Shown one piece after another: positions 1-19,728 of a stretch of 23,416 nucleotides of DNA; the first letter of the stretch is position 1; the number at the start of each line of letters is the position of its first letter. Both the position numbers and the translations under genes were made by a program. Below the pieces are notes generated by a model. It was not told the origin of the DNA. It did not search any database and saw nothing but the letters and a program-made list of their open reading frames with translations. The stretch comes from a virus. The stretch covers positions 1 to 23,416 of IMG/VR virus record IMGVR_UViG_3300036981_000146; one strand, 5' to 3'.

Positions 1-3000
1 GTATAGTTCGCCGCCGCCGCTGTGATGTAGGTAGTGCTGATTTTACGGCCAAGGTCGTCATTTGTCGCGCCTATGGCCAGAGTTGCCAGAGTTGCTGTTC
101 CTGCGTTGCCAGTAGTGTTTGCGCCTATAAGTGCCGCTAAACGGTTTGTTGGAACCGTCCCACCTGTAAGCTGGCTGGCGTCCAGTGCAGTCAAATCTCC
201 ACCATTGCCCACAAACGAGTCTGCGGCCAAATCACCCCCAGCCATGTTCAGATTGCCGGACAGGTAAAGCGTGCCCGGAACATTTGTCAAAACAGACGTT
301 CCGATAATGATGCCTTTTGTGGCATCTACTTTTACCTGGTTCTTGAAATCGTTTGTCCCTGTCCAGTCGTTTGTGCCGGCCAATGGAGCATACGTCGTGC
401 TGATCTTCCGGGCGAGATTGTCGTTGGTCGCGCCTATGGCCAGAGTTGCCAAGGGAACCGTTCCTGTGAGTTGCGCCGCGTTCAACGATGCCGCTCCGGT
501 CAGCAAATTAGTAACCTGCCCACCAGTTGTGGCAGACCCGTCCGCATTGACCGGAACAGCGCCCGAGGCCGCCCCGCTAACCATCTTCAAGTTTGCGTCA
601 GACATGACCATCCTCGAAGCCGTCAGCGCCGCATTAGTTAAACTAGTAACTGCCACATTTCCCAAGACTACAGCAGCAGCATGGTTGTTGGTCAGAATCT
701 TGTCGTTGGCTAATGCCTGCATGGTCGCCCATGTCGTGCTCGGCGTCATGTCCACCCATTCCCAAGTCAGCGCCCCGCTCGCCACGGCTGGAATCTTGCT
801 CTGCTCCGGACCAGCCGCGAGCCGTGCCGGTGCCCAGAGGACGTTTGTCGCGTTAATTACGTAGGTTTGCGAGGCCAACCCGTTCGTAACCGGGCCGCCC
901 GTGGCGTTTGACGCCGCCACCGCAACCGTGCCTGTCGTCAAATTGGATGCGTTATGAGCCGCAAGATTCGTCCGCGCTGCTCCAGCGTTCGCCACGTCGC
1001 TCAAATTGTTGGTGCTGAATAGGTCGCCTCCACCCGCACCACCAGGCACCTCCCAAGTTCCGTCACCCTTCAGGAACTTCGATGCCGTAATCCCCGTCGC
1101 CGCCAGGGCTCCGACCGGGATATTCGTCAACCCCGCCCCACTGCCAACAATTCCATGCTTCACCGTTAAAGCGGCGTTGATGTCCAGTGTCTGGCTCGAT
1201 GATGCCGCGTTGAACACGCCATACATTAAGCTGTTCGTTTTCGCCGCAGCAAGCGATCCCCGGCTTATCGTATCGACGTAAAACTGTCCATTCTCCGTGG
1301 TGACATAATTGCCAGCGGTATAGCCGAGAGCCAGCCCGTAATCTCCTGTCGTCAAAGCCCCGAATGCTCCATACCCAAGCGCCGTGTCCGTAACGGCATC
1401 CCCGGCTAAGGTCATCGCCCCGTGCCCAATCGCGGTGTTTCCCGCCGTGGTTGTGACGTTTTGCAGATTTGCGGAACCAATCCCGATATTTCCCGCTCCA
1501 CTCGTAACCTGCCGCAGCGCCCCAACTCCCAGTCCGATGTTTCCATAACCAGACGTAAAAAGTCCTACCGCACCAGCCCCGCCGAACATCCAGTTCGCAT
1601 TCGTCTGCGGCCTGCTCAATGCCTCTCCGTCACCTCGTAAAATGCTGTCCGTTGTCAGGTTAGTCGCTATCAGCCTGCCGGTGACGCCCGAAGCCACAAC
1701 GGCTGATACTGCATCGTAAACCTGGGTCACGGCAGCCGCGGCGCTGTCCATCCGAATGGTCAACAGCCGTAAATCCTGCCCCGGCACCGCGCTGGTGATC
1801 GAGGCTGTAGCGTCCATCGATGCGAAGTTGGTCTTGTTCCAAATATCCCGCACGACGACCGTTCCAACAAAGCCGAAGCTCGCTGGCGAGAACACAATGT
1901 TGGTCGTCACAGCGTTGGTGTTCAACAGCGCAACCGCGAAGTAACGGCCAACCCCTTTCCCCAGTCGCTTGCCATAAATCCTCTTGTCCGAGCTGCTTGA
2001 AACAAGTTGCTGACACGTCTCCGCAAGCGGGTCTTGCAAAACCTCATAAACCTCGTCATTGAACATGAAAGGGTGGTACGACCAGTAATTGGAGTTGGCC
2101 AAGCTGAACGACGCGAACATCATCGGCGTGCTCAGCATCGCAACCATGCCCATTTGCGCCCGGAAAGAGCCGAGCGTAGCTCCGGCCATGCCGTTGTTGA
2201 TGATCGAGAACCCGTTGTATTGTCCCGGCTGACCCTGCCCGGCGTGCGCCATCACGTAATCAATCCGCTGCACCGTATTGCTGAATTGCCCAAGGATTTC
2301 TTGGATTTGAACACCGCCCGATCCATAGACTGCGTTCTCGTAAATATCGGCATAACCAGATTCAAGCGTGTGCGTGGTTCCAATCACATCGTAGATGATT
2401 GGCTTCTTGCCGAACCACAACGCGTTGGTCCTGAGCATGAGCGAGTCGTTATAGACGTTTGTGGTCATTGATCCACGCAGCCACGTGATGCCGGACGCCA
2501 GGTAGTTGGTGATCTCCGCAACCAGGTTGGTCGGACCGGCCAGCCCGTCATTGCCCACGCCGGCCGCGTTCGCGGGCTCCATGTAGATGCCAAGGTTGAC
2601 GCCGATTGCTTTACCGTAGTCCGCGAGCGTTTTCAGCGTGTAATCCGGGAACCTGGCAGGATCAAGTCTCAGCAGCCCGTTTGCTCCGCGATTCGTGTTC
2701 GCGCACTGCCACGCCTCGATAATGACCGTTGGCGAGTAAGGCATCTTGTTCGTGCTCAACATCGCCATAAAGTTCGTCACGTCGCCCTGGTTCAACGTGC
2801 CGGAATACATGTCCCACGCTATGGGCGGCACCGGATAGAGACCTTTTAGATAACCGCGATTCGAGGATAATGCGCTCGCAGAAGTAAGGAAATTCGACCC
2901 GCCGACCTGCGCCCCGACCGCCGCCGCCTTCATGTAACCGTTGGTTTGTGTCTGAACATACAGCTCCGTTGCCAGTCCGTTCGTGACGGTTCCTCCCGTA

Positions 3001-4226
3001 GCGCTCGCCGTGGTAGTCGCTGTTGCCGCATTACCGCTCACGCTGCCGATTATGGTTTGGCTGTAAGTGTTCACTCCGGTGAACGTCTGGTTTGCCGCCA
3101 GGTAAGCGTTTCCCGACCCCGCGCTTGCCCCAGACAGCGAGATGTGCGACTGGCTGTTCGTGCCGATATGGAACACGACATCAGACGCGTCTGGCGTTAC
3201 CTGCGCCACAACCTTGATCCTGCGCATGACATAAAACCCCGTCGCGTTTGTCGTTGAATAGCTCGGATTCGACACCGTCCACGAATAGAGATTCGTCACA
3301 CCTTCCGTGATGGCTTGAGCTTGGCTATCCCAATCTCCAAACCAGTTCGTTCCGTCATACGAGACATAAATCTCAGGTTTTACCGTAGGGCCCACCGTTC
3401 CCGACCCGGTCAGGCTCTCCAAATAGGCGTTCACCGTCACGCCGGAGTTGAGTTGCAGTAATTTGTTGGTGGTCGTAACGCTGCCAATATACGTGCCGTT
3501 GGCCGGTTCGGTGTATGTCCTGGAGCCGATGTATGCCGGGATCGCTGTGCTGAATGAATATACGACTTGCGCCGTGTCGTTGTTCGTGAATCCAACAGCT
3601 ATGTTCGTTGTCGCATAGTAGCTCACGCCCGAGCCATCGAACAACCCCCGCACCCAGCCCGCTGTTGCCAGCTCGTTGTTGGCCGGAGCGTTGGTGGTTA
3701 CGGATAGGCTAAAGACAGAGCCGTAGAACGATCCACCATTTGTGGTAATGACGGTCGATGTGTCGATGCCGTTGGTTCTGACAACAATCCCGCCCGCTGT
3801 GATTCCCCAGTCGGTTAGCATCCCGTAGCCTGGAGCAAATGCCAGCCCGGAGGCGTTGTAGGGATTTATCTGCGATGCGGCCCAGTTGGTGTAGATGTAG
3901 AATGGAACGTTGGTCAAGTTGGCACCATTGCCGTAGAATCCCGCCACGGAGTTGTTTGTTAGTCCTGACGAGAGCGTGCCTCCAGACAGGGGAAGATAGT
4001 AAGTCGAGACGTATCCAGTGCCAGCAATCCCTGACAGAATCAGGTTGGTCAGCACAGAGAACGACGAGTAGTATCCCTGCACGCCAGGATTCTCCCACGG
4101 CATCCGGTAGGTATCAGGAATGGCGGCGAGCGCTCCGCCTGGAGCATTGGCAATCGTGGCATCGGCGGCGTTGGATCGCAGCGCAAGGAAGAATAGAGTC
4201 GTCGCTATCAGTAGTAGTTTTTTCAT
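1..4226 (-). CDS. Giant exported fibre-like protein with embedded GH27-like domain (3' end beyond the window)
   Basis: One reading frame stays open from the ATG at 4226 to the left edge (1408 full codons, no stop), so the C-terminus is missing. It begins with a clear Sec signal peptide: Lys2-Lys3, a hydrophobic run at residues 4-16, and a likely cleavage near Ala20/Ala21. Thr/Asn/Gly-rich fibre-type sequence follows, with repeated F-x-GNG-x2-LT motifs (near residues 80, 1020 and 1340), two copies of an ATGG-x-VTNGLA motif (near 405 and 1090), and an [13 protein letters not shown] motif like those in phage tail-fibre repeats. Residues about 465-825 resemble a complete GH27 alpha-galactosidase, and about 890-980 contain YadA-head-like GN-x-AIG repeats. 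The start overlaps the stop of the collagen-like gene as ATGA. The likely role is a receptor- or glycan-binding appendage. The signal peptide is unusual for a virion fibre, so a host-surface or secreted adhesin is the alternative. Confidence 0.85.
34..451 (-). repeat. Direct repeat pair near the C-terminal part of the fibre-like gene
   Basis: Positions 34-88 and 397-451 repeat each other with an offset of 363 bp (121 codons, in frame). Positions 64-88 and 427-451 are identical over 25 bp. Both encode [10 protein letters not shown]-x-L-x-RKISTTY. The repeat shows that the fibre shaft grew by in-frame duplication of a roughly 120-residue unit, and it could mediate unequal recombination. Confidence 0.8.
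1290..1550 (-). repeat. YadA-head-like GN-x-x-IG protein repeats
   Basis: About residues 893-979 of the fibre-like protein contain degenerate repeats of about 14 residues: [49 protein letters not shown]. This pattern is known from the left-handed beta-roll head of trimeric autotransporter adhesins and from phage tail fibres. It suggests the protein is trimeric here. Confidence 0.6.
1752..2849 (-). other. GH27 (alpha-galactosidase)-like domain with degenerate active site
   Basis: Domain inside the fibre-like protein, about residues 460-825. It opens with [11 protein letters not shown], as GH27 proteins open with PPMGWNSW. Then come VIIEAWQ (family: IDDGWQ), [19 protein letters not shown] followed by [10 protein letters not shown] (family: FPxGMKxLADYxHxKGLKxGIY), [10 protein letters not shown], and [17 protein letters not shown] (family: WAMMxAPLLxGND). 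A C-terminal sandwich follows, with [25 protein letters not shown] and LRLLTI in the usual order. The segment aligned with the nucleophile motif YLKYDNC reads WLRGSMT (582-588), and the segment aligned with WNDPDML reads YNGFSII (670-676). The catalytic Asp therefore appears absent, which suggests a binding module, not an enzyme. The alignment was made by eye. Confidence 0.65.
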
Positions 4227-4774
4227 GGGAGTAGAATAGTTCCACCGCTTGGCCACAGGATGTATCCTCCACCAGGCCAGATCCAGGATGGGCCGTGAGC
4301 AGGTGGAACTATGATTCCTATGGCAATCAGCAGTCCGTTGGAGAAGTTGAGCGTATTAGTTAATCCGGTGTCGGCAAAGATTACAGGGAAATTGGTGGTC
4401 AGCCCTATCGTCACGTTGGTTCCCGATGGTCCGGGAGGACCTTGTGGGCCAGTCGCGCCGTTGGTGCCATTGATGCCGTTCGTTCCGTTCAATCCTGGGA
4501 TGCCTTGGATTCCTTGAATGCCCTGAATTCCCTGAATGCCTTGCGGGCCAGGAGGCCCAGGCGGTCCTGGCGGGCCTATTCCTCCAAACGCATTGATGAC
4601 TACTCGGTTGTTGGTGTAGGTGAAAAGGACGTTAGTTCCAGGAAGCATGAAGTATGCCTGGGCCTGCTTGGCGTCTGGCTTAGGTTGCCAACCCTGGAAC
4701 CAATAGCTGACGTTCTGCGCTTGAATGGCGCAGGACGCCAGCATTAGAAACACGGTGACGAGAAACCGATTCAT
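4223..4774 (-). CDS. Exported collagen-like protein
   Basis: 183 aa. A hydrophobic leader at residues 1-19 carries a possible lipobox Leu12-Ala13-Ser14-Cys15; cleavage by signal peptidase I after AIQA is the alternative. Residues 64-117 form 18 uninterrupted G-X-Y triplets (GPP, then a GIQ run, then GTN/GIN), a collagen triple-helix sequence that would drive trimerisation. The C-terminal about 65 residues are Gly/Pro/Trp-rich with a hydrophobic stretch and probably form a globular or trimer-capping part. Collagen-like segments are common in phage tail fibres, but an N-terminal export signal on one is not. Its start overlaps the upstream stop as ATGA and its stop overlaps the giant fibre gene as ATGA, so the two are probably made together. 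It could be a stalk or adaptor for the giant fibre-like protein. Confidence 0.8.
4424..4585 (-). repeat. Collagen G-X-Y coding repeats
   Basis: A run of 18 in-frame Gly-X-Y codon triplets. Its core is a near-perfect 9-bp tandem unit encoding Gly-Ile-Gln. The repetitive DNA may contract or expand between isolates. Confidence 0.8.
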
Positions 4775-5019
4775 GGAGCATCCGGATCGCTCAACAGCGC
4801 CAGCTTCGCCTTGAACTCGTCTATCTCCTGCTGCGTCGGCGGATTCCCCTCAACCCATCGCTGAACCTGGGAAGCCAGATCGGGAAGAATCTTGTCCACC
4901 GCCTTGCCGATGATGATGAAGGGTATCAAGCCGGGGGCAAGAGTCGAAGCCATGTCGGCTCCAACTTCCAGCCCGGAGATGATGTTCTCCAGAAGGTCGT
5001 GTAGTTCTTGTGATGTCAT
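4771..5019 (-). CDS. Small protein with one hydrophobic helix, unknown function
   Basis: 82 aa. An acidic N-terminal helix (to about residue 25) is followed by a hydrophobic Pro-containing segment, [15 protein letters not shown], at about residues 27-41, then a charged C-terminal helix with an [15 protein letters not shown] motif. I do not recognise the family. It lies between a probable outer-membrane lipoprotein gene and the collagen-like gene, joined to both by ATGA overlaps, so it belongs to the membrane/export cassette. It may be a membrane-associated accessory of lysis or of the fibre proteins, but nothing in the sequence decides this. Confidence 0.7.
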
Positions 5020-5393
5020 GGTGCGCTCCTGTAGTACCGAATTAACCAGACTATATTGGACCCTTGGTCAATCATCGAAGCAATCCCCGCCTCAAGTGGC
5101 TGTTTCAGGACTGAATTCGATCCATAGCTGAGGCGCATGGCCTCGATGGTGCCGACCGTGGCAGCGAAGCGCAGGCGGGCCTGCTTCACTTCGTTCGATG
5201 CCGTGGTCAGCGACATGCGTTGCTGCGGCGTCAGGTCCGGCTTGGCCGAAGCTGTAATGATCCAGTTTGTCCAGCCGATGTAGCTGCCGTAGGCCAGCGT
5301 TACCGCCGTTTGCTCCGTCCGAAAGACGTGCGTGGAGAAGCTGGCGCACCCAACAAGGAGAGCCAGCAATGGGATGATCAATAATTTCTTCAT
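5016..5393 (-). CDS. Probable outer-membrane lipoprotein, spanin-like candidate
   Basis: 125 aa. A textbook lipoprotein signal is present: MKK, hydrophobic residues 4-14, then Leu13-Val14-Gly15-Cys16, so Cys16 should be acylated. The mature part is mostly helical, with residues about 55-95 containing a heptad-like charged helix and a Trp/Tyr-rich C-terminus. It directly follows the holin-like gene by an ATGA overlap. In phages of diderm hosts a small lipoprotein beside a holin is often an outer-membrane spanin (Rz1-like), which acts with an inner-membrane partner to disrupt the outer membrane. At about 110 mature residues it is longer than classical Rz1. It could also be a superinfection-exclusion lipoprotein. 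Confidence 0.75.
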   Translation of the reverse strand: MKKLLIIPLLALLVGCASFSTHVFRTEQTAVTLAYGSYIGWTNWIITASAKPDLTPQQRMSLTTASNEVKQARLRFAATVGTIEAMRLSYGSNSVLKQPLEAGIASMIDQGSNIVWLIRYYRSAP

Positions 5394-6030: not shown

Positions 6031-6423
6031 TTATGGAATGGCAGGAGTCCCAGATGATTCGTTTGAGTTCGCGCTCTCTCCGCAGGCGTTCACCGCTGAA
6101 ACAACGTAGTAATAAGTCGTTCCATTAACCGCCGTTGCGTCAGTGTATTTAAGCAGGATAGTTCCAACAAGCGTGGTGTATGGTCCTCCAGCGACGAGAG
6201 AACGCTTGACGTTGTAGTAAAGGGCATCCGCCACAGCAGTCCATGTTAACTTGTTCTCGTTGTTTCCAGCACCGACAGCCAGATTTCCAGGTGCGGCTGG
6301 CAGTTCACATTCAGCACTCGCCCATTGGCACAGCAGATAAATGTCAATCCCTCCAAATGCTCCTTTTGGGATGCACCTGAGGCACTTGGCGGCCTCCAAC
6401 AGGGCTTTCGGGTCGCAGTTCAC
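6031..6423 (-). CDS. Cys-module plus fibronectin type III protein
   Basis: 130 aa from a GTG start at 6423 that shares its first base with the TAG stop of the gene upstream, which suggests re-initiation. Residues 1-38 are one copy of the Cys-X2-Cys helical module found in the next two genes upstream (CDPKALLEAAKCLRC, ending IDIYLLCQW). Residues about 42-130 form a clear fibronectin type III domain: PGNLAV, LTWTAVADALYYNVKRS, GGPYTTL, TYYYVVSAVNACGESANS, ending in TPAIP. FN3 domains on phage proteins usually sit at the particle surface and bind carbohydrates or cells weakly. A role as a small virion decoration or tail accessory protein fits but is inferred. Confidence 0.8.
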   Translation of the reverse strand: MNCDPKALLEAAKCLRCIPKGAFGGIDIYLLCQWASAECELPAAPGNLAVGAGNNENKLTWTAVADALYYNVKRSLVAGGPYTTLVGTILLKYTDATAVNGTTYYYVVSAVNACGESANSNESSGTPAIP

Positions 6424-6653
6424 TAGGCGCTAGAGGCTATAGAGCACAGCAGATAGGCAATCACCGCGTCCCGGCTCTTTTGATCGGGAAAGCAGTAGCA
6501 GGCCGCCGCCTTTGCCAGTTCCGCTGGCGTTGCCGTGTTTTCGGCAATCTGCGCCAGAAGGTAAATCAGGATCGCATCACTGTCCTGTTTTCGGGGAAAA
6601 CAATAGCACGCGCTCGCCCGTGCGAGATCGCTCGGATCGCATGAAACAGCCAT
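6423..6653 (-). CDS. Small protein of two Cys-X-Cys helical modules
   Basis: 76 aa made almost entirely of two copies of a module of about 37 residues: CDPSDLARASACYCF up to ILIYLLAQI, and TPAELAKAAACYCF up to VIAYLLCSI. Each has a polar helix, a Cys-Tyr-Cys turn and a hydrophobic helix ending in Y-L-L. No signal peptide or known enzyme motif is visible. Its stop is shared with the GTG start of the FN3 gene, and a GC-rich hairpin lies just upstream of its ATG. The start has no clear Shine-Dalgarno. It is probably a small structural or assembly protein; the family is not one I recognise. Confidence 0.7.
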   Translation of the reverse strand: MAVSCDPSDLARASACYCFPRKQDSDAILIYLLAQIAENTATPAELAKAAACYCFPDQKSRDAVIAYLLCSIASSA

Positions 6654-6665
6654 AGGTTAAAGGGT

Positions 6666-6701
6666 GCCGGGACACCCAGCCACCAGCCTGAATGTCCCGG
6701 C
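6666..6701 (-). terminator. GC-rich hairpin between two Cys-module genes
   Basis: A perfect 9-bp inverted repeat (GCCGGGACA at 6666-6674, TGTCCCGGC at 6693-6701) with an 18-nt loop fills most of the 56-bp gap between the genes ending at 6710 and starting at 6653. On the minus strand it is followed by only a short T stretch (CCCTTT), so it may be a weak intrinsic terminator, an attenuator or an RNA-processing stem that sets the level of the downstream genes. Confidence 0.45.
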
Positions 6702-6709
6702 GTTGGGGG

Positions 6710-7051
6710 TTAATCGCTGACCCACGCCTCGAAGTCGTGGCATAGCAGCCACATGATGGCCGCAAGCAATTGCTTCTCGCTCGCGCATTCCAGGCACCGG
6801 ATAGAATCGATGATCTCGGGAACGGTCTGCCGATCCAGAAGCCCTTGGCCCATGATGGAAACCAACCCGACGAGGAGTTGCTTCTTGCTCATGCAAGTAA
6901 AGCAGGCCGAGCTTTTCATCACGTCCGTTACCGCGTGCTCCTCCGCTGCCGCGAATATGCCGACCAAAGCCGACAGAAGTTCCTTTTCTGACAGGCAGGG
7001 CAGGCAGGGATTCAGTTTCAACAGTTCCGATGGTGTGCAGGTAAATGCCAT
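6710..7051 (-). CDS. Protein of three Cys-X2-Cys helical modules
   Basis: 113 aa with three tandem copies of the same module: CLPCLSEKELLSALVGIF, CFTCMSKKQLLVGLVSIM and CLECASEKQLLAAIMWLL, each preceded by a short polar helix. It has no leader peptide and the C-terminus is acidic (DFEAWVSD). A strong ribosome-binding site, GGAAGGAG, lies 7 bp before the ATG, in contrast to its neighbours. It lies between the capsid region and the FN3 gene, so a virion-associated role is likely. The Cys pairs could bind metal or form disulfides, but in a cytoplasmic assembly context metal binding seems easier. Family not recognised. Confidence 0.75.
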   Translation of the reverse strand: MAFTCTPSELLKLNPCLPCLSEKELLSALVGIFAAAEEHAVTDVMKSSACFTCMSKKQLLVGLVSIMGQGLLDRQTVPEIIDSIRCLECASEKQLLAAIMWLLCHDFEAWVSD

Positions 7052-7467: not shown

Positions 7468-9084
7468 TTACGGCGTGTCCTTCCAGGGAATCTCGATGCT
7501 GGAGCAGCTTGCGCCAGTCAGCGTGATGCTCGGGTTCGCATCGGTCCAAACGCCCATGGCGCTCAGCTTGGCGTTCAGTTCGACCACCAGCAGCGCAATC
7601 GTGGTGCTGCCCGAGATAGCCGGATGAACGATCCCCATGCCGTTGCACTTGATGCTGTTCGCGGCGACCTGATAATTCGCAGTCCCGCCTGTGTGCGTGT
7701 TGATGATCGGCACTTGGCTGATGACGTAAGCCGACGCATTCGTCGAGCACACATCGTTCGCGCTTTCGTAGTGCTGATACGGGTACGGGCTCGGATACGG
7801 CGTGCAGGTCGGCAGATCGACGATGCAGGCCGGTTCGCGCAGACTGATGAACACTTCGGCCAACTCGGGATACTCGGCCTTGATGGCTCCGCCGAAGGTC
7901 GTGCGGAATTTGCCCTTGTTCCGAAGCTCGTTGTTGACCGCAATCGGCACCTCGATGTTGGTCCCGGTCAGTTGATCGGCCACCTGCATCGTGCCGCAGG
8001 TCAGATTGTCCATCACGAACTGCCACTTGCCGGCGAAATCCCGGGCCGCAAACGGCATCTCAGGGTTGATCGCCTTGGCGTCCCGGACCAGCGACGTCAT
8101 CGCTTTCCGATGCCAAATGAAGTCCGCCTGGACCCCGGCGTTGTCGTAGTCGGCATTGACATCTTCCTTGATGCCTTCCGTTGCCGCGATGTTCGTGTAC
8201 GGATACACCACGTTCAGAACCACCTGGGCCGCCGTGGCCGAGACGATGTTGAACCGCAGCGAAAACGCATCCGAACGGAGCCCGAAATTGCCAACGCTCC
8301 CGGTCCAGCCGTACTTGTAGTACTTGGCCGCATCCGTGAAACTCTGGAAACGCCAGTGATCCGTCAGGTTCGTGTCGCCCTCAACCAACCCCCACACGGT
8401 ATCCATGTTCGTGACCAGTTCCAGCATCGGCTGCATGTTCTTGTTGATCGTTGGCCCTTCCGCGCCAGCCCGGATCTGCGGGTCAACGCGCCGTTGGAGG
8501 TGGCGCGCGGTGAGCTTGCTGGTCGGAATCACCGACTGGCCAGCCGTTACCGGCGTCAGGGTCAGCATCGTCATGGCAGCGTTCCAGGTCGCATTCGCCG
8601 CGGTCATGCCGTTGCCACTCAGCACCCAGCGATATTTGGCGATCCGGAGAGCTTCTGTGCGGAACCGATAGGACCATACGATGGTCGAAATCCGGCGCAA
8701 AACCCGGACGAAATGAGCGAATTGCTGCGTAGCCCGATCTGCGCTGAGAATCTGGTCCCAGCAGAAGATGTCGGTCGCGTAATCCGTCTGTTGGAGCCGG
8801 TAGCTGTCCCGGGTGAACCCCAGGCCAACCTTGGTGACAGCGGGATCGCACGGAGCCCCGACGCAGGAGGCATTCTGGATGTCGTTCCAGGCCCCAAGCT
8901 TCGGGAACACGTTCTCGAACCGGTCGAAGGTGTGTTCGATGCCATCCTCGGCAGCAAAGCGCCCTGTGGACACGTGGCCGACCCATTGCGAGTCGAGCGG
9001 GTGCATGGAAAGGATGATGTTGTCATCCAGGTGTTCAGTCTTTTTTGCGATGTAACTTGCGAACGCGGAACATGAAATAGCCAT
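7468..9084 (-). CDS. Probable major capsid protein
   Basis: 538 aa, no leader peptide and no enzyme motif. The call rests on size, position (after portal, scaffold-like and GroES-like genes, behind its own 205-bp leader) and a mixed alpha/beta composition typical of HK97-fold capsid proteins. A long charged helix region lies near residues 120-160 (FAHFVRVLRRISTIVWSYRFR), and beta-rich segments alternate from about 240 onward. Residues 340-357 (NPEMPFAARDFAGKWQFV) recur in the 77-aa gene at 11481-11714. The C-terminal third is Cys-rich and ends in IEIPWKDTP. Strong expression is expected from the isolated leader in front and the hairpin behind. An abundant tail or vertex protein is the alternative. 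Confidence 0.75.
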   Translation of the reverse strand: MAISCSAFASYIAKKTEHLDDNIILSMHPLDSQWVGHVSTGRFAAEDGIEHTFDRFENVFPKLGAWNDIQNASCVGAPCDPAVTKVGLGFTRDSYRLQQTDYATDIFCWDQILSADRATQQFAHFVRVLRRISTIVWSYRFRTEALRIAKYRWVLSGNGMTAANATWNAAMTMLTLTPVTAGQSVIPTSKLTARHLQRRVDPQIRAGAEGPTINKNMQPMLELVTNMDTVWGLVEGDTNLTDHWRFQSFTDAAKYYKYGWTGSVGNFGLRSDAFSLRFNIVSATAAQVVLNVVYPYTNIAATEGIKEDVNADYDNAGVQADFIWHRKAMTSLVRDAKAINPEMPFAARDFAGKWQFVMDNLTCGTMQVADQLTGTNIEVPIAVNNELRNKGKFRTTFGGAIKAEYPELAEVFISLREPACIVDLPTCTPYPSPYPYQHYESANDVCSTNASAYVISQVPIINTHTGGTANYQVAANSIKCNGMGIVHPAISGSTTIALLVVELNAKLSAMGVWTDANPSITLTGASCSSIEIPWKDTP

Positions 9085-9289: not shown

Positions 9290-9622
9290 TTATGGCAGCA
9301 CAGCCAGCACGTCCTCCGTTCGCAGCATTTTGAGTCTGCCCGAGGTTTCCCAGTTCATCGTGACGCCGGACCCTGGGCGGACCAGCACTCGAGCTCCCAT
9401 GCCGAATTCAGGCATGACCGCCAGCCCGTTCTTGAGCCGGGGCCAGGGACCGATCTCCACGACCTTGCCGGTGATGCCGCGAGGCTTGGACGGCATCTTG
9501 TCAGCCTGCTGGTGTTCCTCAGCCGACATGGTGCGCTCCGGGATGTGCAGGCCGGTGAGCGTGAGCTTTTCGGGCGCGTCCAGTTCGACGAGGACGTATC
9601 CGGTCAGGGGCGTGATGCGCAT
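9290..9622 (-). CDS. GroES-like co-chaperonin
   Basis: 110 aa from the ATG at 9622. The frame is open further upstream, but homology begins at MRITPLTGYVLVELD, the GroES N-terminus pattern (KIRPLxDRVLVK). LTGLHIPERT corresponds to the mobile loop that binds GroEL (GGIVL in E. coli). TGKVVEIGP, MGARVLVRPGSG and the C-terminal RTEDVLAVL match GKVVAVGxG, xGDxVLF and SESDILAIV. The protein should cap the host GroEL ring and help fold phage proteins. T4 gp31 sets the precedent, and the capsid gene lies immediately downstream. The start overlaps the upstream gene by 19 bp and has no clear ribosome-binding site, which suggests translational coupling. No GroEL gene is present. Confidence 0.85.
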   Translation of the reverse strand: MRITPLTGYVLVELDAPEKLTLTGLHIPERTMSAEEHQQADKMPSKPRGITGKVVEIGPWPRLKNGLAVMPEFGMGARVLVRPGSGVTMNWETSGRLKMLRTEDVLAVLP

Positions 9623-11207: not shown

Positions 11208-11484
11208 AATTCAGTGTGTTCCTTTTTTCGTCTGTGGGTGGTTTGATGGGGTCGGCTATCGTTTGGAGAATTTCCAGCACGCGGCGAGCGCCGTGCATTT
11301 GGGCATTGGCGTCGAGGCCAACGTAAGGGTCGGTCGGCAGGCTCGGGTGGCAGTTGTGCGGCATCTCGATTGCCAGTTGCAGCAGGGCGTATTCGCAGGC
11401 GGTCTCGAATGCCTCGTTTCCAACGCAGCGCCGAAACTCAGCCGCCTTGCCGCTTACCTGAAAGGATTCACGTGGGGTTTTCAT
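11200..11484 (-). CDS. Small unknown protein between Tat-leader gene and scaffold gene
   Basis: 94 aa, no leader and no motif I recognise. Two helical regions can be seen (about residues 10-40, EAFETACEYALLQLAIEM, and 60-80, AQMHGARRVLEILQTIAD) with an HNCHPSLPTDPYVG link between them. ATGA joins it to the gene upstream, and it overlaps the scaffold-like gene by 8 bp, so it is translated with the head-assembly set. Confidence 0.65.
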   Translation of the reverse strand: MKTPRESFQVSGKAAEFRRCVGNEAFETACEYALLQLAIEMPHNCHPSLPTDPYVGLDANAQMHGARRVLEILQTIADPIKPPTDEKRNTLNYG

Positions 11485-11714
11485 TGAGGAACAAATAGCG
11501 GGCCAATGTCACCCTTAACGAATCTCCATTGGCCATAAAAATCTCTGACCATGAATGGCATATCAGGGTGACAGATAAACGACGATTCAAGTGTGGCAGT
11601 TTCGTAAATGGATTTTGTCGGTTTCCAAATCCGCTCGTAAGTCAGTGCGCTCGGCAAAATGGAGAAAACCGCTGTGGCTGGCAGCAGCGTTGAAAAGAAT
11701 CCACGTCGATTCAT
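11481..11714 (-). CDS. 77-aa protein with Tat-like leader and a capsid-like peptide
   Basis: The N-terminus MNRRGFFSTLLPATAVFSIL has the twin-arginine pattern (RR-x-F-F) followed by a hydrophobic stretch, as in Tat export signals; an Ala is present near residue 23 but the cleavage site is not clean. Residues 49-66 (HPDMPFMVRDFYGQWRFV) match residues 340-357 of the probable capsid protein at 11 of 18 positions. GGTGAG lies 3 bp before the ATG. Function unknown. The leader suggests export, while the peptide suggests shared ancestry with, or mimicry of, a capsid element. The gene is small but its tight spacing (4-bp gap upstream, ATGA downstream) argues that it is real. Confidence 0.65.
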   Translation of the reverse strand: MNRRGFFSTLLPATAVFSILPSALTYERIWKPTKSIYETATLESSFICHPDMPFMVRDFYGQWRFVKGDIGPLFVPQ

Positions 11715-11718
11715 AGAC

Positions 11719-11940
11719 TCACCAAAAACGCACGTCTCGCGGGTCCCGCTTGACGGGTTTCTTTTTCCCGGCCTTGCTCATCGCAATGGCAACCGCCTGC
11801 TTCTGCGGCCTGCCCTCGTGCATCAGCCTTGAAATGTTCGAGGATACGGCAGATTTCGACTTTCCCTTTTGGAGTGGCATAACGGTTATTGGGACAGTTT
11901 CGAGTTTCGGTTGAGGTCGCTTTTGAATCTCAATCATCAT
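11719..11940 (-). CDS. Small basic phage protein (PQKQAVAIA family)
   Basis: 73 aa, strongly basic. The core MPLQKGKSKSAVSSNISRLM, followed by EGRPQKQAVAIAMSKAGKKK, matches a widespread small phage/bacterial family of unknown function with the signature M-P-L-x-K-G-x-S, NI, and PQKQAVAIA; I recall it as a DUF (possibly DUF6496) but cannot confirm the number. Such genes often lie near portal and terminase genes. The start overlaps the portal stop as ATGA, and a second ATG follows at once. The basic charge would suit DNA or RNA binding, but that is a guess. Confidence 0.75.
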   Translation of the reverse strand: MMIEIQKRPQPKLETVPITVMPLQKGKSKSAVSSNISRLMHEGRPQKQAVAIAMSKAGKKKPVKRDPRDVRFW

Positions 11941-14240
11941 TCTTTGGGAGCTTGGGCGTCCGTTCCCGCCTCGGCAAGCCTTTTCAAGCGGTTGGCCATT
12001 AGATCGTGCCGAGTAATGGCCCCGGTGCGCTCGATCTGCGCCGTGGCTTGGAGGTCCTTCCGGGCTTCATCGGCCTGGAACTGCTTGTCCTTGTGCTGCT
12101 CCTTTAGCTGTGCCGTGGCCGTCAGCGTGTCGGCCTTCGCCTTGGACTGCATCATCATGGATTGTACCTTTGCCGCCGCTGCGGGGTCCTCCTGGGGCGC
12201 TGCGCCGTTGCCCTGGGCCTGCTTCTGCATCGATTGCTGCAACCGTTGCGCGAGCCCTTTGACGTGGTTCATTAGCTGGCCGAAGGCATCCTCATACTGC
12301 CGAACCTTCTCCTTTTCGTCAGGATTGCTGGCCATGATCGCCAGGAAGTCGCCGATATGCTTCCCGATATTCCCCAGGCCGGTCAACTCATCGGGCGTGG
12401 CCGTGTCGCCGCGCTCCAAGATTTTCTTGAGCATCAGCCCCATGTCCTTGAGCCATACCAGAACGTAATCCTCGAAAATGGCATCCTTGGGCGCTTCAAA
12501 CGGCAGCCCGCGTAACAGGCGCTCTGTCGCCAGTTGAGCCACGTTCGTTGAATTGCTGATCGGCGTCTTTTCGCCCAGTGGCGCAATTTGCTCTGCCAAA
12601 TCCGGCTGGTCGGTCGCCGCCTCGACGCTGAGATGGTCCACGATCCGCTGCCCGTCAGGCGGCAGGTTCCTACGGATTTCATTCAGGAAGCCCACGGTCG
12701 CCATTTGCATCGTCTTGTTGCCGCCGCCAATGACCTGCTCGGGCTCGATGTTCCACTTGTCCACGTCCAGCATTTCCTCCGGGATGCCATCCTGGAGGCA
12801 GCCCAGGCGGAATTCCCGCGCCATCGGGTCCGTGCTGTTCTTGATGCACAACCGACGAAACATCTCCCGATACTTGAACGTCTCGTAGATGTAGGCCATT
12901 TCCTGGATGCCGGATGCCAGGGATTGGCTGGAGTTGACTATGGCCATTGTCTCGGTCGCCGTGCGCCCGCCCTTTTGCGCGTTGTTGTCGTAAGCCTGGG
13001 TGTAGCTGGTCGAGCTTTGGCTCATCAGAAATTGGTTCCGCGCGAATCCCATCTCCAGCAATTGGGAATTCGGGGTGAACCTCTCCGCCGCGGTTAAGAA
13101 CTTGATCCCTTGCGGAATAATGCCCATGTGCTCGAAGTTTGCTTTCTTCAACCGAATCAAATCCTGGTTGCCCGCCGTCTGGAAAAACCACATCAACTGC
13201 TCGAACAGCGACTCGTTGAACTTGCAGTGCAGCCGATTCTGCAACTCGCAGACCCCCCAAAGCATCCAGCCCAAGCCCCGGATGCTATGGTATTTCACGG
13301 GCGCATACGGGGAGCAGTCGCCAAACTGGCAATGAATGATTTCGTCTGCGGTGTTGGCGTATTTCCGTTTCCCGCTGCTGTAGATGAAGCCTTCGCCGTT
13401 TCGGGAGTCCGGCCTCGCGCTGGTGATCTCCTGTCCGGCGTTCCAGTCCAGGATAATTCTTCGATACCAGCCGTTCCCATCTTCACAGCGGTTGTAGAAA
13501 TCCCAAACATCCACCGTGGGGACCGCGTCGCTTCCGTATAACCCCTTGTCTTGCTTCGCCAATTCTTCGATCCGCTCGGGCATGTACTGGAAGGCCAGGG
13601 AGTTCGGAGACTTCCTCAAGTCATCCTTCACGTAATCATAGGCCGACTGGACAACCTTCATATTCCAGCCCGGGTCAACCTTCGGCCCATGGGTCATGGC
13701 ATAAAGCTGCGTCAGGGTCCACTCCCGGAACACGGCGAAGCATTCGAGATTGTCGAAGTCGTCGATCTCGGTTTCGCTCGGTATCAGCAGGCTGCCGACC
13801 GGGATGGCGACCGGGATAACCGACCGGCGATCCTTCCAGTTGACCGGCCCGATGCCAAACAGCATCGTATTGGCCCCCGTATTCTTGACCTGCCCAACCA
13901 TCCGCCGATCCCGTTTCAATGGCCGGTTCGCGCGCGCGGTTGCAAAATGAGACCACTCCATCCGCTTGTGCCCAGGACCGCTATCTGGTTTCGCGGTGAA
14001 GAAGTACGACGGCTTCAAGTGTGCGTTGTTCCACTGCCGCCGCGCCATGGCCAGCAGGTTTGGGCCTGAAAGGTCGCTGATATTGATCTGGATGTTGTTC
14101 TCCTCAGCGGTCGCATCGTCGAAAGGAGGATTCCCGTTATACAAACGGAGAAGCGTGGTCCGATCTGCTGCTCGCGGCTGGTCCGCAAGTCTCATGTCCC
14201 AGCATTTCTCCTCAACCGCTGCTACTGTATCAAAGCGCAT
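11937..14240 (-). CDS. Portal protein
   Basis: 767 aa, the size of large podovirus-type portals (P22 gp1 is about 725). The N-terminal half is mixed alpha/beta with many Trp residues. Residues about 30-70 (RLYNGNPPF through LLAMARRQWNNAHLKPSYFF) resemble the start of the clip/wing region, and TATETMAIVNSSQSLASGIQEM near 440 resembles the stem/crown helix region. The C-terminal about 150 residues are coiled coil (MKQAQ-type and KEQHKDKQFQADEARKDLQATAQIER segments), as in long portals with a helical barrel. Portals form the dodecameric DNA gate at the head vertex and bind terminase. In most phages the portal gene follows the terminase gene directly, but here about 6 kb of accessory genes lies between them. 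Confidence 0.8.
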   Translation of the reverse strand: MRFDTVAAVEEKCWDMRLADQPRAADRTTLLRLYNGNPPFDDATAEENNIQINISDLSGPNLLAMARRQWNNAHLKPSYFFTAKPDSGPGHKRMEWSHFATARANRPLKRDRRMVGQVKNTGANTMLFGIGPVNWKDRRSVIPVAIPVGSLLIPSETEIDDFDNLECFAVFREWTLTQLYAMTHGPKVDPGWNMKVVQSAYDYVKDDLRKSPNSLAFQYMPERIEELAKQDKGLYGSDAVPTVDVWDFYNRCEDGNGWYRRIILDWNAGQEITSARPDSRNGEGFIYSSGKRKYANTADEIIHCQFGDCSPYAPVKYHSIRGLGWMLWGVCELQNRLHCKFNESLFEQLMWFFQTAGNQDLIRLKKANFEHMGIIPQGIKFLTAAERFTPNSQLLEMGFARNQFLMSQSSTSYTQAYDNNAQKGGRTATETMAIVNSSQSLASGIQEMAYIYETFKYREMFRRLCIKNSTDPMAREFRLGCLQDGIPEEMLDVDKWNIEPEQVIGGGNKTMQMATVGFLNEIRRNLPPDGQRIVDHLSVEAATDQPDLAEQIAPLGEKTPISNSTNVAQLATERLLRGLPFEAPKDAIFEDYVLVWLKDMGLMLKKILERGDTATPDELTGLGNIGKHIGDFLAIMASNPDEKEKVRQYEDAFGQLMNHVKGLAQRLQQSMQKQAQGNGAAPQEDPAAAAKVQSMMMQSKAKADTLTATAQLKEQHKDKQFQADEARKDLQATAQIERTGAITRHDLMANRLKRLAEAGTDAQAPKE

Positions 14241-14251
14241 AATGCGTGAAC

Positions 14252-14797
14252 TTACGTCTGTTTGGCAGAATCACAACGGGTATTTCTCCAACGGCTCCTA
14301 CGATTGTTTGCCTGCGCCTTGCGCGTAGCCCACACGCAATTGTCTGGCGAGTAATCTCCGTCGTTGTCCTTTCGCTCAATGGTGTATTTACGGGATGGTC
14401 TAGGCCCCATATCCCACGCAAACTTTGAGAAGGAGTGCAGCCACCTTGGGCAAACACGAATTCCCCTGCCTCCCCAATTCATCCATCCTTTCCGTTTCGG
14501 ATCATCACAGCGCCGCTTCATATTTTGCCAAACAACGTAGAGGGCCGACTGTTTTCCGTTGGCCGTACCACCGTGAATCAGCCTTGAAGCTCTTACCCTT
14601 TCTTCTCTAAGGCATCCACAAGATTCGGTATGCCCGTTTTTAAGGTGCCGACCAGCAACAACCGCCAAATTTGAACATCTACAGCGGCAACTCCAAAACA
14701 CAGTTGTATCATAATGCGGCGACCCGCTTCTGGAAATATGGTGAATCCCCAATACCTTTAACCGACCAAATCTTTTTCCGGAAAGCGATGCAATCAT
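14252..14797 (-). CDS. HNH homing-endonuclease-like protein 1
   Basis: 181 aa. The N-terminal zinc-ribbon-like part has [11 protein letters not shown], then CRCRCS and TESCGC, the usual opening of a large family of phage HNH proteins (GKxFGRLTV, SCGC). The C-terminal domain has [57 protein letters not shown] and NNRR, the conserved core of that family. Such genes are selfish: they cut cognate alleles that lack them and spread by repair. It lies between the sugar methyltransferase and portal genes with 11-35 bp gaps and looks more AT-rich than the portal gene. A paralogue is encoded at 19288-19728, so the two could have carried the cassette between them. Confidence 0.85.
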
Positions 14798-18593: not shown

Positions 18594-19303
18594 TTGTACG
18601 GAATGTCGATCAGCCTTGACCACTGGACTTTCCTTTTAGGCGTTTCGTGATGCCAGTTGTCTGTGTGCGAACACCACATCAGGCAATTGCTTTGATCGTC
18701 TCTCCACAGGATGTTCTTTGGACTGCGCCATTGGCGCGGCTCCCATTCTCCATCCCATGTCACCATCCGCACTGGCAATCCCCGGGCCTGTGCTCGTCTC
18801 CAGAGTGAGTTTGCGCCGTGCTCGAATTCATACCGTGTCTTTCTGTCCACAGCCAAATACGGGTAGGCCGCAATCAGTTTTGGGGTGGTGAAAAACGCAG
18901 TCGTGTTTAGGTGAGAGCGAACGAGATTGCTGCTGAATGGTCCGTACATTCCCGGGCCGTGCTGTTCCCAGGCGTCAACCAGCCGCTTGAGCCAGCCGGA
19001 CCTGTGAAAGTAGTTGGACTCGCCGAGACACAGCATCGCGTCGTAATCCGCGCACGGCCCCCGGGCTGCATCCTGATAAGCGCTCACGTCCCGGCCTGGA
19101 TCGTTCGCCCTTGGGTAGAACAGCGGATTAAGCGGAGCGAAGATCATCGCCAGTTCCGTGCTCAACGGCCCCCCGTTGCAAATCACCATCAAATCTGCAT
19201 CAGCCCCAGGCGGATACTCGTTGAACGTCGCTACGAACCGGCTGGCGTAGTCGGCGGTGATCGGGCCGAGGGTGACTGCGATATAGGCTATGCAGACGCG
19301 CAC
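18590..19303 (-). CDS. Glycosyltransferase-like protein 1 (RgpF-like)
   Basis: 237 aa from the GTG at 19303, chosen because it aligns with the N-terminus of its paralogue (MRVCIAYIAV against MKVVVVYVYA). An ATG at 19345 is the alternative but would overlap the HNH gene by 58 bp. NDPGRDVSAYQ (67-77) is a good RgpF-type N-x-GRD motif; DYDAMLCLGESNYFHRSGW (86-104), NTTAFFTTPKL and YEFEHGANS also match the paralogue. Tandem paralogues of this type usually add different sugars or act at successive steps. The 5' end is entangled with the HNH gene, so the original start may have been remodelled when that gene arrived. Confidence 0.7.
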   Translation of the reverse strand: MRVCIAYIAVTLGPITADYASRFVATFNEYPPGADADLMVICNGGPLSTELAMIFAPLNPLFYPRANDPGRDVSAYQDAARGPCADYDAMLCLGESNYFHRSGWLKRLVDAWEQHGPGMYGPFSSNLVRSHLNTTAFFTTPKLIAAYPYLAVDRKTRYEFEHGANSLWRRAQARGLPVRMVTWDGEWEPRQWRSPKNILWRDDQSNCLMWCSHTDNWHHETPKRKVQWSRLIDIPYK

Positions 19304-19728
19304 GGTTTTCGACCGAAGGTAGTGAGAGCTTTCTCCATCGTCCATCCCCTGGACAAGCGATTCAGTATCACAGAAGAATGAACTCCAAGCGTTTTAGCAA
19401 ACTCCGTGAGGGTGTACCTTTTCCCATTCCGCTCAATGTAGTGCATGTTCCGTCTGTTTTGATTCTGCTCAAACATCGTGGCCCATCGGCAGTTTCCTGG
19501 CTCATAGTTTCCGTTGCTTTCAATACGATCAAGCGTGTGCTTCTTGGTTGGCCTTGGTCCCATGTCTAAAGCAAATAATGGAAAACTGTCCCAACGTTCG
19601 CAGATCGTCACACCGCGTCCTCCATAATACTTGAATTTAGGATGCTTCGGATTATGACAACGATCTCTCATGTGATTCCATGCAGAATATGAGTCATGCC
19701 GAGTCCGTGTGCATCGGGGAAATGTCAT
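19288..19728 (-). CDS. HNH homing-endonuclease-like protein 2
   Basis: 146 aa. It has the same catalytic core as the protein at 14252-14797: SAWNHMRDRCHNP, YYGGRGVTICERW, FALDMGPRPTKKHTLDRIESNGNYEPGNCRWAT, QNRR. It lacks the N-terminal zinc ribbon but carries a C-terminal helix-turn-helix of the NUMOD kind (YTLTEFAKTLG, then ILNRLSRGWTMEKALTT), used for site recognition. Its start overlaps the upstream stop as ATGA and its end overlaps the glycosyltransferase gene, so it is spliced tightly into the operon. Probably a mobile selfish gene. Confidence 0.85.
   Translation of the reverse strand: MTFPRCTRTRHDSYSAWNHMRDRCHNPKHPKFKYYGGRGVTICERWDSFPLFALDMGPRPTKKHTLDRIESNGNYEPGNCRWATMFEQNQNRRNMHYIERNGKRYTLTEFAKTLGVHSSVILNRLSRGWTMEKALTTFGRKPCASA

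Follow-up and report, generated by a model that had tools for sequence, protein, structure and literature searches.

Predicted Sec-type leaders on fiber-like proteins in a family of uncultured tailed phages

Synthesis and attachment of tailed-phage fibers are assumed to take place in the cytoplasm. In the Ff phages a receptor-binding virion protein, pIII, is synthesized with a Sec leader that is then cleaved; it stays anchored in the membrane until assembly, and the particles are extruded through the membrane without lysis. Exported phage products of another kind are T5 Llp and Cor, phage-encoded superinfection-exclusion lipoproteins with a lipobox. Superinfection exclusion by phage lipoproteins has also been described for the mEpimmI coliphages, whose Lpp is likewise phage-encoded, exported and equipped with a lipobox (PMC11893012). 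PblA and PblB, encoded by phage SM1, act at the surface of the host cell, which they reach via permeabilization by holin and lysin, with no Sec-leader route as far as that paper states (PMC2920869). Trimeric autotransporters of the YadA type carry a Sec leader, and the known members of the T4 gp9/gp10 connectors (PHROG 677, Pfam T4_gp9_10_N) begin directly at their N-domain.

The window analyzed here, meaning the whole stretch of DNA, is a linear virus record of 23,416 bases. On its minus strand it encodes, in order, a terminase, sugar/SAM-type genes, the portal (11937-14240), a twin-arginine mini-protein, a putative scaffold and the major capsid protein (7468..9084); these are followed by three small Cys-module proteins, two small membrane proteins, a lipoprotein and an 82-aa protein, and finally by a collagen-like protein and a giant GH27-containing protein that runs off the window. 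Only the terminase, among terminase, capsid, portal and nozzle, has a clear PHROG match, and the other three are named from their place in the gene order and their conservation across the phage family. Read by eye, a small protein encoded between the scaffold-like and capsid genes (9290-9622, minus strand) is GroES-like, and the open reading frames at 14252-14797 and 19288-19728 (both minus strand) share a motif, in one form GNYEPGNCRWATMFEQ, a pattern that we take to be associated with phage HNH-type endonucleases.

The collagen-like and the GH27-containing protein resemble pIII in bearing a predicted Sec leader ("Sec-led" in the following) and, in the reading preferred below, would likewise be receptor-binding virion proteins; unlike Ff, however, this phage has the gene set of a tailed phage (terminase, portal, capsid and lysis genes), and its relatives' proteins mostly lack a clear second membrane anchor. 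The exclusion lipoproteins Llp, Cor and mEpimmI Lpp are small, whereas the window proteins are fiber-like and measure 183 and more than 1408 aa. Relatives such as L013 and L100 contain YadA-head-like repeats, but no C-terminal barrel or anchor family of the autotransporter kind was matched in the scanned relatives, and the C-terminus of the window protein lies off the contig.

The collagen-like protein (4223..4774, minus strand; 183 aa) matches Pfam Collagen over residues 67-119 (E=3e-9), and its matches to tail-fiber PHROGs are confined to the collagen repeats. The GH27-containing protein (3..4226, minus strand; at least 1408 aa, open at the window edge) shows two fiber-type sequence motifs when read by eye and returned no match in a PHROG search. 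The predicted leaders occupy 4715..4774 and 4167..4226 (minus strand), the latter with cleavage predicted between SNA and AD, and both consist of a charged n-region, a hydrophobic core and small residues at the -3/-1 cleavage positions. A simple home-made scorer, which gave 5.4-7.9 for 11 E. coli control leaders, places them within this range at 5.7 (collagen-like) and 5.5 (GH27-containing). When N-termini from proteins of the family were shuffled, 1.06% reached a score of 5, and the real scores were equalled in 47/5000 and 170/5000 shuffles of the proteins' own N-terminal 45 residues; taken alone, these statistics make a modest case for leaders, and the comparative evidence given below weighs more.

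The start codons are tied to the operon structure. The collagen-like gene overlaps the upstream gene (4771-5019) as ATGA, and the ATG of the GH27-containing gene at 4226 overlaps the collagen-like gene in the same way, which makes shorter, leaderless starts of either gene unlikely; a GTG at 4256, which would give the longest reading frame for the latter, was set aside in favor of the coupled ATG. The collagen-like leader contains a lipobox, LASC (pattern [LVI][ASTVI][GAS]C), at Cys15 (codon 4730-4732), and a few residues on a possible signal-peptidase-I site between IQA and QN: the protein may thus be a lipoprotein, or may instead be secreted. No lipobox was found in the leader of the GH27-containing protein. 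The sequence-only reading had proposed Sec-type leaders on both proteins and a possible lipobox on the first; the leaders hold up, and the lipobox is there, with the signal-peptidase-I site close by.

The same reading had labeled the giant protein as containing GH27. As a fold this is well founded: residues 492-823 (1758..2753, minus strand) match Melibiase_2 and Melibiase_C above the Pfam cut-offs, corresponding to a GH27-like (beta/alpha)8 domain with a C-terminal beta-sandwich, and align with the alpha-galactosidase 6f4c (E=2.8e-8). The catalytic part of the label does not follow. The nucleophile motif LKYD (KxD) is not conserved, being aligned with LRGS against 6f4c and with a gap against the Verrucomicrobiota GH27 protein L350; the usual substrate aspartates (IDD, WNDPD) are also altered, and at the acid/base position one alignment places a Glu and another the Asp of ADIY. 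With the canonical nucleophile motif absent, the domain is probably not an ordinary alpha-galactosidase and enzyme activity seems doubtful; from its sequence, a binding role in place of a hydrolytic one appears likely. A single-sequence AlphaFold2 model of this domain had a mean pLDDT of 39 and was discarded.

To place the window among relatives, viral contigs were collected by searches with its capsid protein as the query (30 contigs) and with a portal alignment (80 contigs), the two sets partly overlapping. The complete-looking members are uncultured phages of ~50-58 kb. Neither capsid nor terminase matched any of 50,697 annotated phage records, and the GH27-containing protein used as a query found no relatives among the viral contigs. 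Sec-led proteins nevertheless recur in the slot between the capsid and the lysis/nozzle genes: they are present in 11 of 29 hand-labeled genomes of the capsid-based set, and sizeable ones occupy the same slot in ~12 further genomes of the portal-based set, so that about two dozen relatives in all encode Sec-led, N/T/S/G-rich proteins after the capsid gene, one of them (G012/L013) with four or five in a single genome. Their domains include the right-handed beta-helix, YadA head, Ig, SBBP propeller and lectin-like types. The trait changes at least six times on the capsid tree, and led homologues retain the character of a leader (charged n-region, core, AxA-like sites) at 29-65% leader identity. 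A clear second membrane segment is missing from most of the mature proteins, and the genomes of many relatives contain genes for long proteins of both kinds, Sec-led and leaderless. Predicted export leaders on fiber-like proteins are a repeated trait of this phage family and extend beyond one contig.

Outside the family such leaders are rare. The scorer found no leader on any of the 79 collagen-like proteins from viral contigs, and 66 of 67 fiber N-domains of the gp9/10 type in viral contigs had a possible start codon no more than 12 residues away. Predicted export leaders on fiber-like proteins are a real finding and one that is unusual for viruses. The sole led N-domain of this type among the 67 belongs to a relative of the window (L009): PHROG 677, the T4 gp9-type connector, aligns from residue 21, and cleavage is predicted after residue 18. 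A leaderless cousin in the same phage family (L005) aligns to PHROG 677 from residue 1, showing that in L009 the leader precedes a domain whose known relatives attach fibers to the particle.

A second feature links the led proteins of relatives. In 13 of them the hydrophobic leader is immediately followed by a tag that approximates AQ-(0-3)-P-[VFYIL]-[RHQ]-[SNQ]-x-[FWLVM]-TT-[NQ], and the bodies behind it fall into ~8 groups without detectable mutual similarity. A tag HMM gave its next match after these 13 at E=0.86; since 12 of the 13 also served to build the model, with only L293 new, this indicates confinement to the position behind a leader and is not an independent rate. Connector domain and tag stand behind predicted leaders in relatives only: in the two window proteins we found neither a recognized virion-docking domain nor the tag. 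Three fibers of ~990-1580 aa (L286, L293 and L301) depart from the pattern, with the leader-like stretch ~65 residues inside the protein and the TTN tag behind it, and no better start codon was found for L286 and L301. A swap of led and leaderless forms between L300 and L301/L286 was withdrawn because the latter two carry this internal stretch. For the 'PN..GDxFLL' N-domain, no leaderless homologues were found.

The window has two further export signals. Four such signals in one late operon had been counted from the sequence, and the count is correct. The lipoprotein (5016..5393, minus strand; lipobox LLVGC) is kept in most relatives and looks like ordinary equipment of a putative lysis cassette, and the twin-arginine mini-protein (11481..11714, minus strand; 77 aa, beginning MNRRGFF, with the motif RRGFF) adjoins the portal gene ~6.7 kb from the fiber-like genes. 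Relatives encode homologues with RRxF[FL]; members of this family are found in L309, L340, L307, L121, L320, L323, L299, L293 and L303. Several of these mini-proteins continue after the leader with a segment similar to the major capsid protein of the same phage: in L320 it corresponds to the N-terminus of that protein (57 aa, 47% identity, HMM E=1e-13), in the window it resembles capsid positions 345-369 (E=2.8e-9), and in L307 and L121 the resemblance is weaker, with the best shuffled control at 9e-4.

The three small Cys-module proteins of the window (6031..7051, minus strand) are encoded at 6031-6423, with an fn3-like tail, 6423-6653 and 6710-7051. Their repeat, C..L..AAKCFxCIP....V..YLL, is found in many relatives, either in small proteins or at the N-terminal end of large fibers without a leader; AlphaFold2 predicts helical repeats at low confidence (pLDDT 64). 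The K+E content of mature Sec-led proteins (3.0%) is close to that of Cys-module fibers (3.4%), against 7.8% for the capsid, a match which says that the Sec-led proteins are of the same sort as these fibers and bears on composition, not destination. In the small hand-labeled set, Sec-led proteins and long Cys-module fibers are negatively associated (Fisher p=0.0012); the association is weaker in the wide set (p=0.09 and 0.04), and tree-aware independent contrasts are too few for a test. Mutual exclusion is therefore suggestive and not robust, and we do not claim a strict replacement of one kind of fiber by the other.

A search for portal homologues in 84,980 prokaryote genomes found three short MAG contigs only, two in Verrucomicrobiota MAGs (Pedosphaera and a Verrucomicrobiia bacterium) and one in a Hydrogenedentota MAG. 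The Pedosphaera MAG also contains a capsid homologue, while the capsid alignment gave no confirmed match in the prokaryote genomes, and a portal scan of 387 Verrucomicrobiota genomes recovered one of the three known contigs and none new. The host is thus probably a member of the Verrucomicrobiota, an assignment by MAG binning that is suggestive and not proof.

From the leaders we infer, in a straightforward step, that both window proteins would be exported by Sec. In the reading that we prefer, at a probability of roughly 45%, they are fiber proteins that dock on virions at lysis and serve for receptor binding. The host Sec machinery would carry these fiber-type, probably glycan-binding proteins across the inner membrane late in infection, and the leader would be cut off or, in the collagen-like protein, possibly exchanged for lipidation. 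This would leave a pool, soluble or tethered to the outer membrane, in the periplasm or on the cell surface. At lysis this pool would meet the progeny particles, on which the freshly exposed N-termini would dock to form receptor-binding fibers. Nearly equal weight goes to a close rival, in which the proteins never join the particle and act as exported binders: secreted or outer-membrane-tethered lectins or adhesins that hide receptors on the infected cell and its debris, prevent superinfection, or weaken the polysaccharide coat ahead of release. Phage lipoproteins are known in superinfection exclusion (PMC11893012), the collagen-like leader has a lipobox, the domains found in relatives are those commonly seen in extracellular binding proteins, most of the mature proteins lack a clear second membrane segment, and, as many genomes also encode leaderless fibers, the Sec-led ones could be extra. 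Sizes of up to 1408+ aa, however, are far beyond those of the usual small exclusion lipoproteins, and free binders leave the L009 connector domain and the shared tag unexplained, unless their partner is a phage-encoded surface anchor. It is this domain and this tag that put docking on virions slightly ahead. The sequence-only reading had posed the choice between an exported product and an unusual route of assembly: export is upheld, sequence cannot separate the two, and the comparative evidence leans slightly to assembly.

Other explanations fare less well. That the hydrophobic stretches are uncleaved helices, with folding and assembly in the cytoplasm and no export, would fit L286, L293 and L301, in which the stretch behind ~65 residues is no standard leader; we consider it unlikely, as led homologues preserve the charged n-region, the core and the AxA-like sites despite sequence drift and the sampled fibers of other viruses have no such segments. 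Recent capture of host secretome genes as exoprotein cargo, with leaders retained by descent, draws on the fact that Verrucomicrobiota encode Sec-led GH27 enzymes, including a led homologue at 27-28% identity. Yet the GH27-like domain matched, distantly, only 1 of the 387 Verrucomicrobiota genomes at E<=1e-15, that homologue has the canonical KYD motif missing from the phage domain, and the N-domain of L009 is of phage type, which leaves capture improbable. Least probable of all is lysogenic conversion by prophage-borne surface adhesins, which had been raised from the sequence: the fiber/adhesin domain types and the precedent of PblA/PblB on the cell surface (PMC2920869) speak for it, but the portal homologues, confined to the three short MAG contigs in the scan of 84,980 prokaryote genomes, come without prophage signs, and the genes sit among capsid and lysis genes, so that late expression is expected.

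Extended beyond the window, Sec export with docking at lysis becomes a more tentative proposal, which we regard as possible though somewhat doubtful: that a family of tailed lytic phages may route its receptor-binding fibers via Sec and store them outside the cytoplasm, that leader cleavage would expose an N-terminal docking segment, and that particles would be fitted at or after lysis. We found no tailed phage with Sec-routed fibers in the open-access literature searched, and to our knowledge none is known. Export leaders on fiber proteins, including a T4-gp9-type connector, would point either to part of the assembly taking place outside the cytoplasm or to fiber-like exported tools. Either reading would alter the interpretation of fiber genes in phage genomes and the places in which the receptor-binding proteins of uncultured phages are sought.
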